From Actinomycetota bacterium (GTDB lineage Bacteria > Actinomycetota > Thermoleophilia > Gaiellales > Gaiellaceae), in contig PLBK01000037.1 of the NCBI GenBank assembly GCA_003134505.1, forward strand, positions 29,047 to 89,531: 60,485 nucleotides of DNA, written 5' to 3'. A program made the translations under genes and the position numbers. Positions 15,229-52,844 of the stretch are shown one piece after another; position 1 is the first letter of the stretch, and every line of letters begins with the position of its first letter. The notes below the pieces were generated by a model, which had not been told where the DNA came from, ran no database searches, and saw nothing but the letters and a program-made list of their open reading frames with translations.

Positions 15229-16356
15229 TCAGCGGCGGTCGAGCGCCGCCTCGTAGAGCTGCTCGGTCCGCTCGACGCAGCGGGACTCGAGGAACTCGGA
15301 GATCGCGCGTCGACGCCCCGCGCGGCCCATCTCGGCGGCGCGGCCGAGGTCGCCCGCCAGCTCGACGATTGCGCCGGCGAGCGGCTCGGCGACACCGGGC
15401 TCGACGAGCAGACCGGTCTCGCCGTGCTCGACCAGCTCCCCGAGCCCGCCGATCGCCGCCGCGATCACGGGCCGCGAGCGCTCCATCGCCTCGAGCGCCA
15501 CCATCCCGAAGCCCTCGCCCATCGACGGCACGACGATGATCGCCGAGTCTTCGATCGCGCCCTGGATCGGCGAGACATGGCCGAGGAAGCGCACCGCGTC
15601 GGCGACGCCGAGCTCCCGCGCGAGCGCGCGCAGCGCCGGCTCGAGCGGGCCACGCCCCGCCACGTCGAGTTGCAGGCCGGGCACCTGCTTCCGCGCCTCG
15701 GCAAAGGCGCGCAGGAGCACGATGTGGCCCTTGATCGGGATCAGTCGCCCGACGCAGAGCAAGCGCGGCTCCGAGCCCGCGTACGGCTCGGAGCCGTCGC
15801 GCGGCGCGATGCCGTAGTGGACGATCTCGAAGCTCCCCTCCTCGAACCCCTCCGTCTGGGCGAGGTAGTGCGCGAGGCCTTGCGAGATCGCGATGTGCAC
15901 GTGCGCGAGACTGGCAACAGCCCGGTCGGCGAGCGCGAAGGCGCGGCCCTCGCGGAACTCGTTGAAACCGTGCTTCGTCGACATCCGGATCGGCACGCGC
16001 GCCATCGTCCCGGCGATCTGCCCGTACGCGTCGGCGTGGACGAGGTGCGTGTGGAGGATCTGCGGTCGCGCGTCCGCGAGGTAGCGCACGAGCCCGAGGA
16101 AGGCGGGCGGATCGACGTCACGGGAGATCGCCACCGCATCGAGGGGCACGTCGCGAGCGGTGAGCGCGCGGGCGAACTCCCACGCGCCGGGCTCGTTCTC
16201 GTGGAGCATCAGCAGCCGCACGTCCCAGCCGCGCTCCCGCAGCCTGGGCAGGAGCGAGAGCAGGTGCGCCTCCGACCCGGAGATGCCGGCCACCTTCTGC
16301 ACGTGCAGGATCCGGACACCCCTGTCCTTCCTTGCAACACTCTGTTGCAAGGTCAT
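15229..16356 (-). CDS. GT4 family glycosyltransferase with repeat-derived N-terminus
   Basis: A 375-residue GT-B enzyme. The true domain starts at VRILHVQKVAGISGSEAHLL. HTHLVHADAYGQI, LLCVGRLIPIKGHIVLLRAF and PSMGEGFGMVALEAMERSRPV (donor-site E-x7-E) identify GT4. The first 13 residues, MTLQQSVARKDRG, are encoded by the 23-bp palindrome found three times in the window; no alternative start lies between it and the domain. The ATG overlaps the upstream gene's stop (ATGA). It is a paralogue of the convergent enzyme at 13927. It probably adds a sugar to the lipid-linked repeat unit. Confidence 0.88.
   Translation of the reverse strand: MTLQQSVARKDRGVRILHVQKVAGISGSEAHLLSLLPRLRERGWDVRLLMLHENEPGAWEFARALTARDVPLDAVAISRDVDPPAFLGLVRYLADARPQILHTHLVHADAYGQIAGTMARVPIRMSTKHGFNEFREGRAFALADRAVASLAHVHIAISQGLAHYLAQTEGFEEGSFEIVHYGIAPRDGSEPYAGSEPRLLCVGRLIPIKGHIVLLRAFAEARKQVPGLQLDVAGRGPLEPALRALARELGVADAVRFLGHVSPIQGAIEDSAIIVVPSMGEGFGMVALEAMERSRPVIAAAIGGLGELVEHGETGLLVEPGVAEPLAGAIVELAGDLGRAAEMGRAGRRRAISEFLESRCVERTEQLYEAALDRR
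16330..16352. repeat. 23-bp palindromic repeat, copy 1 (translated)
   Basis: Arms CCTTGCAACA and TGTTGCAAGG (10 bp, perfect) flank a 3-base spacer CTC on the plus strand. On the minus strand it directly follows an ATGA gene overlap and is translated as LQQSVAR at the start of the GT4 gene. The flank AGGACAGGG beyond the palindrome is shared with copy 3. Confidence 0.85.
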
Positions 16357-19186: not shown

Positions 19187-20281
19187 TCAGTGTAAAGCGC
19201 CCTCGACGAGCGCCCGCAGGCGCTCGGCGAACTGGTCCGGCGCCTGGTTCCAGTCGGGGAAGCTCGCGAGCGCCGCGCTCCCGAGCCGCTCGGCCAGCGC
19301 GCGGTCGGAGAGGGCCCGCACGAGCGCGTCCGCCAGCGCGTCCGTGTCCTCCGGATCGACGAGCAAGCCCTGCCTGCCGTCCTCGACCAGGTCGAGGATG
19401 CCGCCCGCACGGCTCGCGACGACCCCGCGGCCGCGAGCGAACGCCTCGATCACGACCCGGCCTAGGCCCTCGAAGCGGGAGGGCAGCACGAGAACGGTCG
19501 ATTCGTCGAGCTTCTGCGCGACCTGCTCGGGCGAGAGCTCGGGGAGGTGCACGGCGAGGCCGTCGGCGACGAGCCGGTCGATCGTCGAGTGCCGCGATCC
19601 CTTGCCGACGACGACGAGCGTGGCCCCGGGGAGCCGGGGTGCCGCCCGTCGCCACGCCGTCGCCAGGCCGTCCACATTCTTGTAGGCCTCGAGCACGCCG
19701 ACGAACAGCGCCGCCGGCTGCTCGGGGAGCGGCTGCACCGGCCGGGCGGTGAACGCGGACACGTCCGTGTAGCCCGTGATCACCGCGTCCGGCCGCACGC
19801 CGCGCGCCCGCTCCACCAGGCCGGCGGTATAGGAGGAAACCGCGCGAACGGCGTCAGCGTGCCGGACGGCGTACTCGTCGAGCGCGTCGACGAGCGGCGA
19901 GAGGAGGCGGCGTGCGGTCGAGCCGTACAGCCGGGTCGCGTGCTGCCAGTTCCCGTGCACCTCCAGGATCACGGGCGGCTTGTCTCCCCGGGCCAGCACT
20001 CGCCCGGCGATGACCAGGGTGGCCGTGCGCGGATCCTCGACCACGATCGCCTGCGGCCGGAAGGTGCGGATCGCACTGCGGACGCGCAGCGGCAGCGCGC
20101 CGTAGAACGAGCCGCCGACCAACTCGAACCGCTCGTCTCCCTTGTAACAGTCTGTTGCAAGGCGGGCGAGGACCCGGTAGTCGAGCTGCCGCTCGATCGC
20201 GATCCACTTCCTCTCCAGAGCGGGCGAGAGCGGCAGCGAGTACCGCGTCGGCCCGACGAACAGCACGCGCGGCCGGCTCAC
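19187..20281 (-). CDS. GT4 family glycosyltransferase (tandem paralogue 1)
   Basis: A 364-residue GT-B enzyme beginning RPRVLFVGPTRYSLPLSPAL. ILEVHGNWQHATRLYGS and VRAVSSYTAGLVERARGV are in the acceptor half; AALFVGVLEAYKNVDGLA, LVVVGKGSRHSTIDRL and PSRFEGLGRVVIEAFARGRGVVAS are in the donor half. It is closely related throughout to the next gene upstream, so the pair arose by tandem duplication. Residues about 40-47 (RLATDCYK) are encoded by a copy of the 23-bp palindrome and align without a gap to SAREGSPV in the paralogue. The GTG start overlaps the upstream stop (GTGA). Confidence 0.9.
   Translation of the reverse strand: MSRPRVLFVGPTRYSLPLSPALERKWIAIERQLDYRVLARLATDCYKGDERFELVGGSFYGALPLRVRSAIRTFRPQAIVVEDPRTATLVIAGRVLARGDKPPVILEVHGNWQHATRLYGSTARRLLSPLVDALDEYAVRHADAVRAVSSYTAGLVERARGVRPDAVITGYTDVSAFTARPVQPLPEQPAALFVGVLEAYKNVDGLATAWRRAAPRLPGATLVVVGKGSRHSTIDRLVADGLAVHLPELSPEQVAQKLDESTVLVLPSRFEGLGRVVIEAFARGRGVVASRAGGILDLVEDGRQGLLVDPEDTDALADALVRALSDRALAERLGSAALASFPDWNQAPDQFAERLRALVEGALH
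20140..20162. repeat. 23-bp palindromic repeat, copy 2 (inside coding sequence)
   Basis: Plus-strand arms CCTTGTAACA and TGTTGCAAGG flank GTC; one base of the left arm differs from copies 1 and 3. It lies within the GT4 gene, about 40 codons from its start, and is read in a different frame from the other copies (LATDCYK rather than LQQSVAR). Confidence 0.8.
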
Positions 20282-49325: not shown

Positions 49326-50456
49326 ATGGTCTGGGAACGGCTCAGACGCAACCCCTGGCTGATCGACGCGGCGCTGGTCGGCCTCCTGCTCCTGTTCGCG
49401 GCCGGCTGGGCGGACCGGAGGGATCAGGGACTCGCGGTCGCGCTGCCGCTCTCGCTCGTGCAGGTGCTGCCCCTGCTCGCCCGGCGGCGTCAGCCGCTGA
49501 TCGTGCTCGGGATCGTGATCGCGGCGACGGTCGCGCTCACGCTCCACTTCCACTCGCTGAACCCCCTCCCGCCGTTCCTGGCCTTCTACTCGGTCGCCGC
49601 GCACGCGGATCGCCGGATCGCGCTGCTCGCGGGCGTGGCCGGGCTCGCAGCGCTCATCGTGCCCGTCCTGCACGAGACCGACTACGACTTCACCTCGTTC
49701 GCGTTCCACCTGCTCGTGTTCCCGGCCGCATGGGTGCTGGGGGACAACCTGCGGACGCGGCGCGCCTACTACGCGGCGCTCGAGGAGCGGGCGGCGCGGC
49801 TCGAGCGCGAGCGCGACGAGCAGGCGCAGCGAGCCGTGGCCGAGGAGCAGGCACGGATCGCCCGCGAACTGCACGACGTGCTCGCGCACAACGTCAGCGT
49901 CATGGTCGTCCAGGCCGCGGCTGCCGGTGACGTCTTCGACTCGCACCCGGGGCGCGCCCGCGAGGCCCTGCGCTCGATCGAGCAGACGGGCCGTGCGGCC
50001 TTGCAGGAGCTCCGGCGCCTGCTCGGCGCCGTCCGGACCGTCGACGACGAGGCGCTGGCGCCCCAGCCCGGCCTGAAGCTCCTTCCTGAGCTCGTCGACC
50101 ACGTCCGGCGCGCGGGGCTCGCGGTCGAGCTCAGCGTCGAGGGAGAGCCGCGCCCGCTCGCCGCCGGAGTCGACCTGTCCGCCTACCGGGTCGTCCAGGA
50201 AGCTCTCACCAACACGATCAAGCACGCGCACGCGTCGACGGCCGACGTTCGCGTCCGGTACGACGACGGACGGGTCGAGCTCTTCGTCGCGGACGACGGG
50301 ATCGGGCCGTCCGCGAACGGCTCGACCGACGGACACGGCCTGATCGGCATGCGCGAGCGCGTCGCGCTCTACGGCGGCGAGCTCGAGACGGCCGCGCGGC
50401 CCGAGGGCGGCTTTCTCGTCCGGGCCAGCCTGCCCGCCGAGCACGGGGTGCAATGA
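49326..50456 (+). CDS. NarL-type sensor histidine kinase
   Basis: A 376-residue kinase. The first ~140 residues are five or six membrane helices (LVGLLLLFAAGWA, LVVALPLSLVQVLPLL-type stretches) with very short loops, as in intramembrane-sensing kinases. A coiled linker (EERAARLERERDEQAQR) leads to the HisKA_3 domain with IARELHDVLAHNVSVMVVQA (phospho-acceptor His183). The ATPase domain has VVQEALTNTIKHA and VADDGIGPSANG, then GHGLIGMRERV. It is coupled by overlap (ATGA) to the LuxR-type response regulator. The signal is unknown; membrane or cell-wall stress is usual for the type. Confidence 0.92.
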   Translation: MVWERLRRNPWLIDAALVGLLLLFAAGWADRRDQGLAVALPLSLVQVLPLLARRRQPLIVLGIVIAATVALTLHFHSLNPLPPFLAFYSVAAHADRRIALLAGVAGLAALIVPVLHETDYDFTSFAFHLLVFPAAWVLGDNLRTRRAYYAALEERAARLERERDEQAQRAVAEEQARIARELHDVLAHNVSVMVVQAAAAGDVFDSHPGRAREALRSIEQTGRAALQELRRLLGAVRTVDDEALAPQPGLKLLPELVDHVRRAGLAVELSVEGEPRPLAAGVDLSAYRVVQEALTNTIKHAHASTADVRVRYDDGRVELFVADDGIGPSANGSTDGHGLIGMRERVALYGGELETAARPEGGFLVRASLPAEHGVQ

Positions 50457-51118
50457 CCATCCGCGTGCTCCTGGCCGACGACCAGGCGCTCGTCCGCAGC
50501 GGCTTCCGGATGATCCTCGAGGCGCGGGAGGATCTCGAGGTGGTCGGCGAGGCCGAGGACGGCCTGGAGGCGGTTGCGCTCGCGCGCTCGCTCCGACCGG
50601 ACGCGATCCTGATGGACGTGCGCATGCCCAGGCTCGACGGGGTAGAGGCGACCGGGCGGATCGTCGCCTCCGGCTCTCCGGCCCGCGTGCTGATCCTGAC
50701 GACGTACGACCTCGACGAGTACGTCTACGCCGCGATCCGCGCCGGCGCGAGCGGCTTCCTGCTCAAGGACGTCGAGCCGGCCCAGCTCGTGAACGCCGTC
50801 CGCGTCGTGGCAGGCGGCGACGCGCTGCTGGCGCCCACCGTGACGCGGCGGCTGCTCGAGCGCTTCGCGGACACGCTGCCCGGCGATCCTGCGGCGCCTC
50901 CGCCCGGCCTCGCGTCGCTCACGCCCCGCGAGCGCGAGATCCTCGAGCTGGTCGCGGGCGGGCTCTCGAACGCCGAGATCGCGGAGCGGCTGTTCCTCGG
51001 CGAGACGACGGTGAAGACGCACGTGTCGAGCGTCCTGCGCAAGCTGGGCCTGCGGGACCGCGTGCAGGCGGTCGTGCTCGCGTACGAGGCCGGGCTCGTG
51101 CAGCGCAGCACGGTCTGA
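50453..51118 (+). CDS. LuxR/NarL-type response regulator
   Basis: A 221-residue protein. The receiver domain has RVLLADDQALVRSGFRMIL with the acidic pair, LMDVRMPRLDG with phospho-acceptor Asp55, LTTYDLDEYVYAAIRAGASGFLLKD with the conserved Thr and Lys. The C-terminal LuxR HTH reads LTPREREILELVAGGLSNAEIAERLFLGETTVKTHVSSVLRKLGLRDR. Partner of the preceding kinase. It converges on the second polysaccharide block, three bases from the stop of the sugar transferase gene, so a regulatory link is possible but not shown. Confidence 0.95.
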   Translation: MTIRVLLADDQALVRSGFRMILEAREDLEVVGEAEDGLEAVALARSLRPDAILMDVRMPRLDGVEATGRIVASGSPARVLILTTYDLDEYVYAAIRAGASGFLLKDVEPAQLVNAVRVVAGGDALLAPTVTRRLLERFADTLPGDPAAPPPGLASLTPREREILELVAGGLSNAEIAERLFLGETTVKTHVSSVLRKLGLRDRVQAVVLAYEAGLVQRSTV

Positions 51119-51121
51119 GCT

Positions 51122-51706
51122 CTAGGCGGACTCGCGCCAGCCGCCGGCGGCGTCCTTGTACGTCCCGCTGAACAGGGCGAACGGCGTGCGGGCGAGGATC
51201 TTCAGGTCGACGACCGGCGAGCGGTGCTCTACGTACCAGACGTCGAGCTCGATGCGCTCGTCCCAGGGCAGCCGTGCGCGGCCGTGGACCTGCGCCCAGC
51301 CGGTCAGGCCCGGCTTCACCTCGAGCCGGCGGCGCTGGCGAGGCGTGTAGCGCTCGACCTGGTAGGCGAGCGTCGGCCTCGGCCCGATCACGCTCATGTC
51401 CCCACGGATCACGTTCCAGAGCTGCGGCAGCTCGTCGACCGAGAGCCGGCGCAGCGCCCGGCCGACGCGGGTGATGCGCGGGTCGCCGCGGTCGACGGCC
51501 GCTCCCGCGCCCTGGCTCTCGGCCCCGACGACCATCGTCCGGACCTTGACCAGCTCGAACTCGGCGCCGTCCCGGCCGACGCGCCGCTGTCTGTAGAGGA
51601 CGGGGCCGCCGTCCGTGAGCTTGACGGCCGCCGCAGCGACGGCGAGCGCGGGAGCCGAGAGCACGAGCCCGAGCCCGGCCAGCGCGACATCGCCCGCGCG
51701 GTTCAT
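51122..51706 (-). CDS. Minimal polyprenyl phosphoglycosyl transferase
   Basis: A 194-residue bacterial sugar transferase of the small (PglC-like) type: a re-entrant N-terminal helix (NRAGDVALAGLGLVLSAPALAVAAAAVKL), YRQRRVGRDGAEFELVKVRTM, RRLSVDELPQLWNVIRGDMSV, IGPRPTL, and VKPGLTGWAQVHGRA with WDERIELDVWYVEH. It transfers a sugar-1-phosphate to undecaprenyl phosphate and is the second initiator in this window, without the CoA-binding-type domain of the larger one at 8500. ATG 51706 overlaps the TGA of a 15-codon mini-ORF made by the palindromic repeat. Confidence 0.9.
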   Translation of the reverse strand: MNRAGDVALAGLGLVLSAPALAVAAAAVKLTDGGPVLYRQRRVGRDGAEFELVKVRTMVVGAESQGAGAAVDRGDPRITRVGRALRRLSVDELPQLWNVIRGDMSVIGPRPTLAYQVERYTPRQRRRLEVKPGLTGWAQVHGRARLPWDERIELDVWYVEHRSPVVDLKILARTPFALFSGTYKDAAGGWRESA

Positions 51707-51750
51707 AAAGCCCTGTCCTGCCTTGCAACAGACTGTTGCAAGGCAGTCAT
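51703..51750 (-). CDS. 15-codon mini-ORF made by the palindromic repeat
   Basis: MTALQQSVARQDRAL. Its ATG overlaps the stop of the GT2 gene (ATGA) and its TGA overlaps the start of the sugar transferase gene (ATGA), so ribosomes leaving the GT2 gene could pass through it into the next gene. The peptide repeats the N-terminus of the GT4 protein at 16356 (MTLQQSVARKDRG). A function as peptide is unproven; a coupling or attenuation role of the hairpin is at least as likely. Confidence 0.45.
   Translation of the reverse strand: MTALQQSVARQDRAL
51721..51743. repeat. 23-bp palindromic repeat, copy 3
   Basis: Plus-strand arms CCTTGCAACA and TGTTGCAAGG flank GAC; both arms are perfect. It lies between the GT2 and the sugar transferase genes and is translated as LQQSVAR on the minus strand. 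The flank CCCTGTCCT (plus strand) matches copy 1. Confidence 0.85.
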
Positions 51751-52844
51751 CGCGTGCCCTCGGCCTTGCTCCAGACGGCGGGCACGCCCTCGCGGGCGTA
51801 GTTCCGCAGCGCCTTGACCGTCGCCCAGGTGACGAGCGTGTAGTAGCGCGGCAGGCCCGGCCGCGCCGCAGCGGCGCCGAGGAACGCGAGTTGCGCAAGC
51901 AGCGCCGTGCGGTACACGCCGCCGCGCCGGGCGAGGGCCAGGCTGGAGCCGAGCAGCGCGAGGTGGAGGAGGCCGCTGCCGTAGCGCAGGTGGCGGTGCG
52001 AGACGATCTTCGCCAGGTAGCCGGGCGGCAGGCCGCGGAGCATGTCCCCCTCGGCGACGATCGCCCAGCAGTGCTCGAACATGCGCACCTTGCGCGCGTA
52101 CTCGTCCTCGATGTCGCGGGACGGCTTCTCGAAGGCGAGCGCCCCGGGCTCGTAGGCCGCGCGGCGCCCGTGCTGCACCATCAGGTACGGAAAGGACAGG
52201 TCGTGGCCGAAGCGCGGGTCGACGTCGACGTAGTCCGCCCGGCGGACGGCGTAGATCGAGCCATTCCCGCCCGTGACCGAGCCCGTCTCGGCCTCCTGCT
52301 CGCGGAGCCACGTCTCCAGTCGCCAGTACGCGCCTTCCACGTTCGTCCCGTCCGCCTCCTGCAGGACGAGGCGCCCGCAGACGTAGGCGACCTCCGGATC
52401 GGCGAAGGAACGCACGAGCAGGCGGAGCGCGTCGGGGGCCCAGGTGCAGTTCGCGTCCGAGAATGCGACCACGTCGGCAGTCGACTCCCTCACGGCGAGG
52501 TTCTGGGCCGCCACCTTGCCGCCACGGGGACAGCGGAGCAGGCGGACGCGCGGCTCGCGGGTCGCGACCTCCTGGACGATGGCGTCCGTGCGGTCGTCGG
52601 ACGCATCCGAGGCGACGACGATCTCGAGCAGCTCGGCCGGATAGTCGAGCGCGAGCAGGTTCTCGAGACGCCGCGCGATCACCGACTCCTCGTTCCACGC
52701 GGCCACGATCACCGCGACGCTCGGCGTCACGTCGCCACGCCCGGGAGGATCCGGGCGCAGCCGTGCCGCGAGGGCCGCGGCGAGCGGGTAGCCGACGTGC
52801 GTCCAGGCGAGCGCGCCGAGCGAGCCCCAGAAGAGCTTCTTCAT
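51747..52844 (-). CDS. GT2 family glycosyltransferase, membrane-anchored
   Basis: A 365-residue enzyme. An N-terminal hydrophobic stretch (LFWGSLGALAWTHVGYPLAAALAARL) precedes the GT-A core: VAVIVAAWNEESVIARRLENLL, IVVASDASDDRTDAIV, VVAFSDANCTWAPDAL with the metal-binding Asp, and ETGSVTGGNGSIYAVRRADY. Two more hydrophobic segments lie near the C-terminus (LLHLALLGSSLALARR; TALLAQLAFLGAAAA). This layout is common in processive or membrane-associated polysaccharide GT2 enzymes. Coupled by ATGA on both sides. Confidence 0.88.
   Translation of the reverse strand: MKKLFWGSLGALAWTHVGYPLAAALAARLRPDPPGRGDVTPSVAVIVAAWNEESVIARRLENLLALDYPAELLEIVVASDASDDRTDAIVQEVATREPRVRLLRCPRGGKVAAQNLAVRESTADVVAFSDANCTWAPDALRLLVRSFADPEVAYVCGRLVLQEADGTNVEGAYWRLETWLREQEAETGSVTGGNGSIYAVRRADYVDVDPRFGHDLSFPYLMVQHGRRAAYEPGALAFEKPSRDIEDEYARKVRMFEHCWAIVAEGDMLRGLPPGYLAKIVSHRHLRYGSGLLHLALLGSSLALARRGGVYRTALLAQLAFLGAAAARPGLPRYYTLVTWATVKALRNYAREGVPAVWSKAEGTR

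Follow-up and report, generated by a model that had tools for sequence, protein, structure and literature searches.

The palindrome between a GT2-type glycosyltransferase gene and a phosphoglycosyl transferase (PGT) gene in the window, by which we mean the whole analysed stretch of 60,485 nucleotides from a Gaiellaceae MAG (82% complete, 2.8 Mb, 56 contigs), is, as comparison with related genomes indicates, a recent insertion and one of a genome-wide set of near-identical sites. It probably serves as a binding site for a family of small DNA-binding proteins, which among the sampled genomes is found in Gaiellaceae only. The comparisons document a family of sites, one insertion, a small gene bracketed by sites, co-variation between this protein and its palindrome, positional conservation of sites, and a switch of palindrome type at two places. 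The junction reads GGCACGCG-ATGA-CTGCCTTGCAACAGTCTGTTGCAAGGCAGGACAGGGCTTT-ATGA-ACCGC on the minus strand, and the features of the window that concern us are the following:

51122-51706, minus strand: PGT gene, 70-81% identical to its best-hit relatives
51703-51706, minus strand: second copy of the ATGA duplicate, the mini-ORF stop overlapping the PGT start (sequence, orthologous junctions)
51703-51750, minus strand: putative ORF, a 15-codon open frame MTALQQSVARQDRAL*, product of the insertion
51707-51717, minus strand: tail GACAGGGCTTT
51707-51746, minus strand: 40-bp insert CTGCCTTGCAACAGTCTGTTGCAAGGCAGGACAGGGCTTT, missing from the equivalent junction of relatives
51718-51746, no strand: 29-bp palindrome with 13-bp perfect arms, CTGCCTTGCAACA-GAC-TGTTGCAAGGCAG (pattern search, 0 expected)
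51721-51743: palindrome core CCTTGCAACAGACTGTTGCAAGG, with CCTTGCAACA-GAC-TGTTGCAAGG at these positions
51747-51750, minus strand: first copy of the ATGA duplicate, the GT2 stop overlapping the mini-ORF start (sequence, orthologous junctions)
51747-52844, minus strand: GT2-type glycosyltransferase gene, conserved partner upstream of PGT (orthologous junctions)
16330-16352, no strand: second copy, at a GT4/GT4 junction, with the GGACAGGG tail, forming in frame the N-terminus MTLQQSVARKDRG of the next GT4 (pattern search)
20140-20162, no strand: third copy CCTTGTAACAGTCTGTTGCAAGG, within a GT4 frame (19187-20281, minus strand), read as LATDCYK (pattern search)

A sequence-only reading of the window had described a 23-bp palindrome between GT2 and PGT with ATGA overlaps at both ends, which holds on the minus strand; the 10-base arms that it gave are present, the true perfect arms being longer (13 bp, 51718-51746). 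Convergent on the PGT gene, plus-strand genes for a histidine kinase and a LuxR-type response regulator, joined by an ATGA overlap, occupy 49326-51118.

The GT2-PGT gene pair is common across Gaiellaceae. Among 30 PGT loci fetched from relatives, about 20 have GT2 directly preceding PGT with a single stop/start overlap (NTGA) and no intervening DNA, a few have 2-8 bp between the two genes, and some are without the partner or spaced otherwise. The junction of G198 is GGCACGCG-ATGA-ACCGC; in the window genome these words recur with 40 bp more, flanked by ATGA on either side. The simplest account of the window junction, the one insertion locus so compared, is a clean 44-bp insertion made of 40 new bases and a 4-bp target duplication (ATGA). 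As a consequence of this duplication the GT2 stop and the PGT start were both retained, and the mini-ORF is therefore a by-product. The idea that the repeat leaves the stop/start coupling layout intact is borne out by the junctions of relatives, a stop and a start being kept on each side via the duplicated ATGA; the idea that the palindrome supplies its own start and stop is not, the ATGA copies being the duplicated target. Within the tail, GGACAGGG occupies the position expected for the Shine-Dalgarno of PGT, a putative role. The same word is found at an identical offset beside 4 of the 32 sites of the window genome, including the junction copy and the copy at 16330, which suggests recent copying of one 36-40 bp unit.

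Two of the copies lie elsewhere within the window (16330 with exact arms, 20140 with one mismatch; shuffles expect 0.00), and at 16330 the frame runs on into the next gene, leaving no closed mini-ORF. The repeat extends beyond the window, as the sequence-only reading had supposed: the strict palindrome occurs 17-19 times genome-wide at two mismatches or fewer (19 sites against 0 for the reversed-pattern control). The window genome matches the pattern GYAACAGNCTGTTRC exactly at 26 sites and with one mismatch at 3 (control 0), and almost all of its sites match CC-WW-GYAACAGNCTGTTRC-WW-GG. A looser form, GYAACASNSTGTTRC, was counted across 399 genomes of the class, 103 of them Gaiellaceae. It is present in about half of the latter (36 with at least 5, maximum 46, and 51 with exactly none), and its count outside Gaiellaceae is 0 or 1; abundance of the palindrome is thus confined to some Gaiellaceae genomes and patchy even within genera. 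An Rfam search of the window gave no match, the palindrome was not found in the viral contigs searched, and a literature search on Gaiellaceae and palindromes returned no relevant paper.

Several relatives carry pairs of palindromes 370-400 bp apart that enclose a conserved frame of about 95 amino acids. The protein family to which it belongs (about 90-115 aa, motif PIAE-x2-RRVG-x9-GLPRPSYxxVR; invariant residues E, A, P-S-Y, R and R, no conserved His pair) is previously undescribed. Profile searches found homologues in 46, then 44, of the 103 Gaiellaceae, the sole match outside them in the 399-genome class sample being marginal (E 7e-4, one genome), and searches of Pfam, NCBIfam, PHROGs, PADLOC and PDB assigned no family; neither homology to ParB/Noc or MatP, nor an HUH or transposase motif, nor relatives in the viral contigs searched were found. 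The palindrome of the window, type 1, brackets almost every close homologue, and more distant ones are bracketed by others: GTGGCTC-N-GAGCCAC (type 2), GTGTTGA-N-TCAACAC, GTGTCGA-N-TCGACAC, GTGTGGA-N-TCCACAC and GTGTTG-TTC-CAACAC. Matched pairs of palindromes were found at 28 of 50 protein loci compared with 1 of 131 control windows, and protein type is associated with palindrome type (p 2.8e-6 and 1.3e-4). The type 2 palindrome is also dispersed; the genomes that have it, for the most part other ones, carry 5-57 copies. The genes that flank the bracketed gene differ between genera, in unrelated neighbourhoods, and the cassette has therefore moved, or been lost and regained. The small protein is more diverged than its neighbours in several syntenic pairs (e.g. 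45% vs 82% in L106/L109), but not in others. No homologue was found in the window MAG, where it may lie in the absent 18% or have fallen to assembly breaks at repeats, nor in the closed genomes G018 and G135, both of which have sites, and no diverged homologue was detected near the sites of G135, G018 and G000.

In all clear members of the family two variable residues come after PSY or a PGY-like variant, in a motif (PSYxxVR) which we take to resemble a LacI-type recognition helix. The residue after the Tyr co-varies with the palindrome: E or Q pairs with half-sites that begin with GTA, and V, A, S, H or G with GTG (GTT grouped with GTG). The counts over 41 hand-classified loci are 23/1/1/16, with a p of 2.7e-9 that is inflated because the loci are related and that becomes 2.4e-4 when collapsed by genus; the co-variation is partly phylogenetic, since the paralogues are related. 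The residues after the Tyr are probably those that read the DNA.

Not all sites arose as the junction copy did. Orthologues of glmM from 71 genomes are equal in length over the compared stretch, and its sites came about or decayed through substitution, with the length unchanged. G000, G003, G296, G026, G186 and G088 have an intact or almost intact type 1 palindrome in glmM, and in others it is degraded; the type 2 palindrome overlaps the type 1 place in G018, with very similar sequence in G022, G104 and partly G286. Several of the codon changes relative to site-free genomes are synonymous, e.g. CAG->CAA, ACC->ACT and GTC->GTT. In the linker of PDH E2, likewise, one aligned position is occupied by type 1 in G003 and by type 2 in G018. 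The palindromic elements of Rickettsia are insertions of 100-150 bp, in frame inside protein genes, that lengthen the protein. Gaiellaceae palindromes can also sit in frame within protein genes, but the tested copies add no residues: those in ALDH, sarcosine oxidase-like, GltB and ArgB genes show no extra peptide relative to PDB relatives. The ratio of exact to one-mismatch sites is 26:3 in the window genome and 25:14 in the closed genome G135, which has no detected protein (p 0.02). As separate observations, the glmM place in genus g33 (L131 = G325, L282 = G032) holds a perfect palindrome CCCTTCTCTCGCAC-GAA-GTGCGAGAGAAGGG that departs from the CWWGT architecture, and glmM of G126 has an imperfect palindrome similar to it.

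We propose that each small protein, which would be of HTH type, binds as a dimer to one site of 23 bp, whose outer half is constant (C-WW-GT) and whose inner half varies (AACAG, GGCTC, GTTGA, ...). Its gene lies between two such sites, spaced by about 380-400 bp, with further copies scattered over the genome, and sites form either by short insertion, as at 51703-51750 (40 bp plus the 4-bp target duplication), or by substitution in place, as in glmM. An active system would keep its sites near-perfect, and loss of the protein would let them decay. Binding might serve a chromosome-wide role, be it NBS- or MatP-like organisation or a block to transcription at gene boundaries, and the gene with its two sites might behave as a mobile or selfish cassette. 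The proposal predicts that, in a genome near the window MAG, two CCWWGYAACAGNCTGTTRCWWGG sites will flank a gene for a type 1 protein. More tentatively, the whole may be a new Gaiellaceae element, composed of a gene of about 100 codons and its bracketing palindromes, with 20-60 sites that accrue by insertion and in-gene conversion and a specificity that is rewritten repeatedly, hence the differences in glmM and PDH E2.

Several other explanations have to be weighed. On the one hand, the palindromes could be a purely selfish REP/MITE-like element whose copies and remnants were inserted by an unknown transposase, with the small protein a passenger or accessory. The clean 44-bp insertion with its 4-bp duplication, the extra GGACAGGG tail common to four copies, the patchy presence within genera and the recurrence of the bracketed gene in unrelated neighbourhoods across genera all accord with it. 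Nevertheless, we think it rather doubtful: the glmM sites are substitutions and partly old, no residues were added in the four genes compared with PDB homologues, the HUH or transposase motif is missing, and the co-variation of residue and palindrome implies recognition by the small protein. On the other hand, the palindrome could be the operator of an ordinary transcription-factor regulon, with sites in target promoters. A site upstream of the gene is what autoregulation would call for, and paired sites 53-118 bp apart show modest helical phasing (Rayleigh p about 0.008, with a few orthologous pairs included), but the gene has another site downstream, many sites are deep within unrelated housekeeping genes and a promoter bias was not found, so that this reading is unlikely.

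The sequence-only reading had also offered a hairpin that tunes expression, i.e. an RNA leader governing translation of the PGT, with the mini-ORF as coupling device. Perfect arms, a location directly ahead of the PGT start and an agreement between arms above the expectation of independence in pooled sites are what such a hairpin would show. In many sites, however, the arms are mixed and do not complement each other, genome-specific preferences may lie behind the pooled agreement, sites occur within genes too and in either orientation, and the ATGA pair is accounted for by the target duplication. Tuning by a hairpin found no specific support. That the palindrome co-varies with what is probably a recognition helix points instead to double-stranded DNA bound by a protein; we consider the hairpin very improbable.

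Known systems resemble the preferred reading, binding sites of a small protein, in different parts. In REP/RAYT (REP-associated tyrosine transposase) systems short palindromes are dispersed and a cognate gene of few copies is flanked by two of them (PMC2817692); the Gaiellaceae system is similar in its flanked gene with solo copies elsewhere, its paralogues with their own palindromes, its patchy spread and its site clusters. In contrast to RAYT, its protein has about 95 aa, no HUH motif and no Pfam match, and its copies are not limited to extragenic DNA, many being in reading frames; some arose by substitution, and no GTAG/CGTC tag was seen. By these features the layout is alike, and the nature of the protein and the copies inside genes both rule out membership. 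In ParB/parS and Noc/NBS, too, the chromosome has palindromic sites for a dimeric HTH protein, whose specificity is switched by a few residues, and NBS sites are spread over the chromosome (PMC7383237). No sequence relation to these was found, however, and the Gaiellaceae gene is bracketed by its own sites, which turn over fast among related genomes, with several specificities per genome. Repressors of Cluster A mycobacteriophages each have about 30 dispersed stoperators whose consensus shifts with the repressor between relatives, a further likeness, but these are 13-bp asymmetric sites of phage genomes with a predominant orientation (PMC6550527), unlike the symmetric, chromosomal sites within host genes described here. 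As for transposons and MITEs, one locus, compared with its empty counterpart, shows an insertion that duplicated its target, and the equal-length glmM orthologues contradict an insertion origin of every copy. What fits best is a set of sites of a fast-evolving small DNA-binding protein, which would combine a REP/RAYT-like layout with a Noc/NBS- or stoperator-like network. The system offers a natural and readable code of protein-DNA specificity, in which palindromes of several types go with a short stretch that varies within a small protein, and the empty-site comparison documents one insertion. The question of how dozens of sites on a chromosome shift their specificity jointly with that of a DNA-binding protein becomes testable.

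Placement of the sites was called with a crude codon-based score, by which 11 of 30 sites of the window genome fall within a frame; most of the remainder were assigned to junctions or to non-coding DNA, and several of these are probably in frame too. Assuming a mostly coding genome, junctions look over-represented. The earlier suggestion of insertion directed to gene junctions thus holds in part: a repeat was inserted at a junction and junction enrichment is apparent under this crude classification, but a similar number of sites is in reading frames, and those that could be compared are substitutions. The same score gave no clear rule for the orientation of genes around sites, and no pattern was established with respect to promoters, orientation or position on the chromosome. 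In the closed genomes G018 and G135 sites are spread over the genome. Site pairs 84-118 bp apart were considered as deletion derivatives of the gene cassette and rejected, their intervening sequences being unrelated by eye, and a pair in the window genome spaced by 518 bp encloses a methyltransferase, not the small protein. Closely spaced palindromes in Hymenobacter (L034, L047), GCAACAGCCTGTTGC and GCAACAACCTGTTGC among them, are probably unrelated. Between relatives, the spacing of one orthologous type 2 pair (L240/L249) goes from 69 bp to 78 bp, a difference of roughly a helical turn, and that of another (L245/L254) is constant at 78-79 bp. G003 and Gaiella sp. FR_16 share an in-gene type 1 site (L017/L046) in genes that are 73% identical at the protein level. 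A type 1 site next to groES is kept between the same two genes in G021 and G135 (L064, L231), and is the sole remaining one of its kind in G021.
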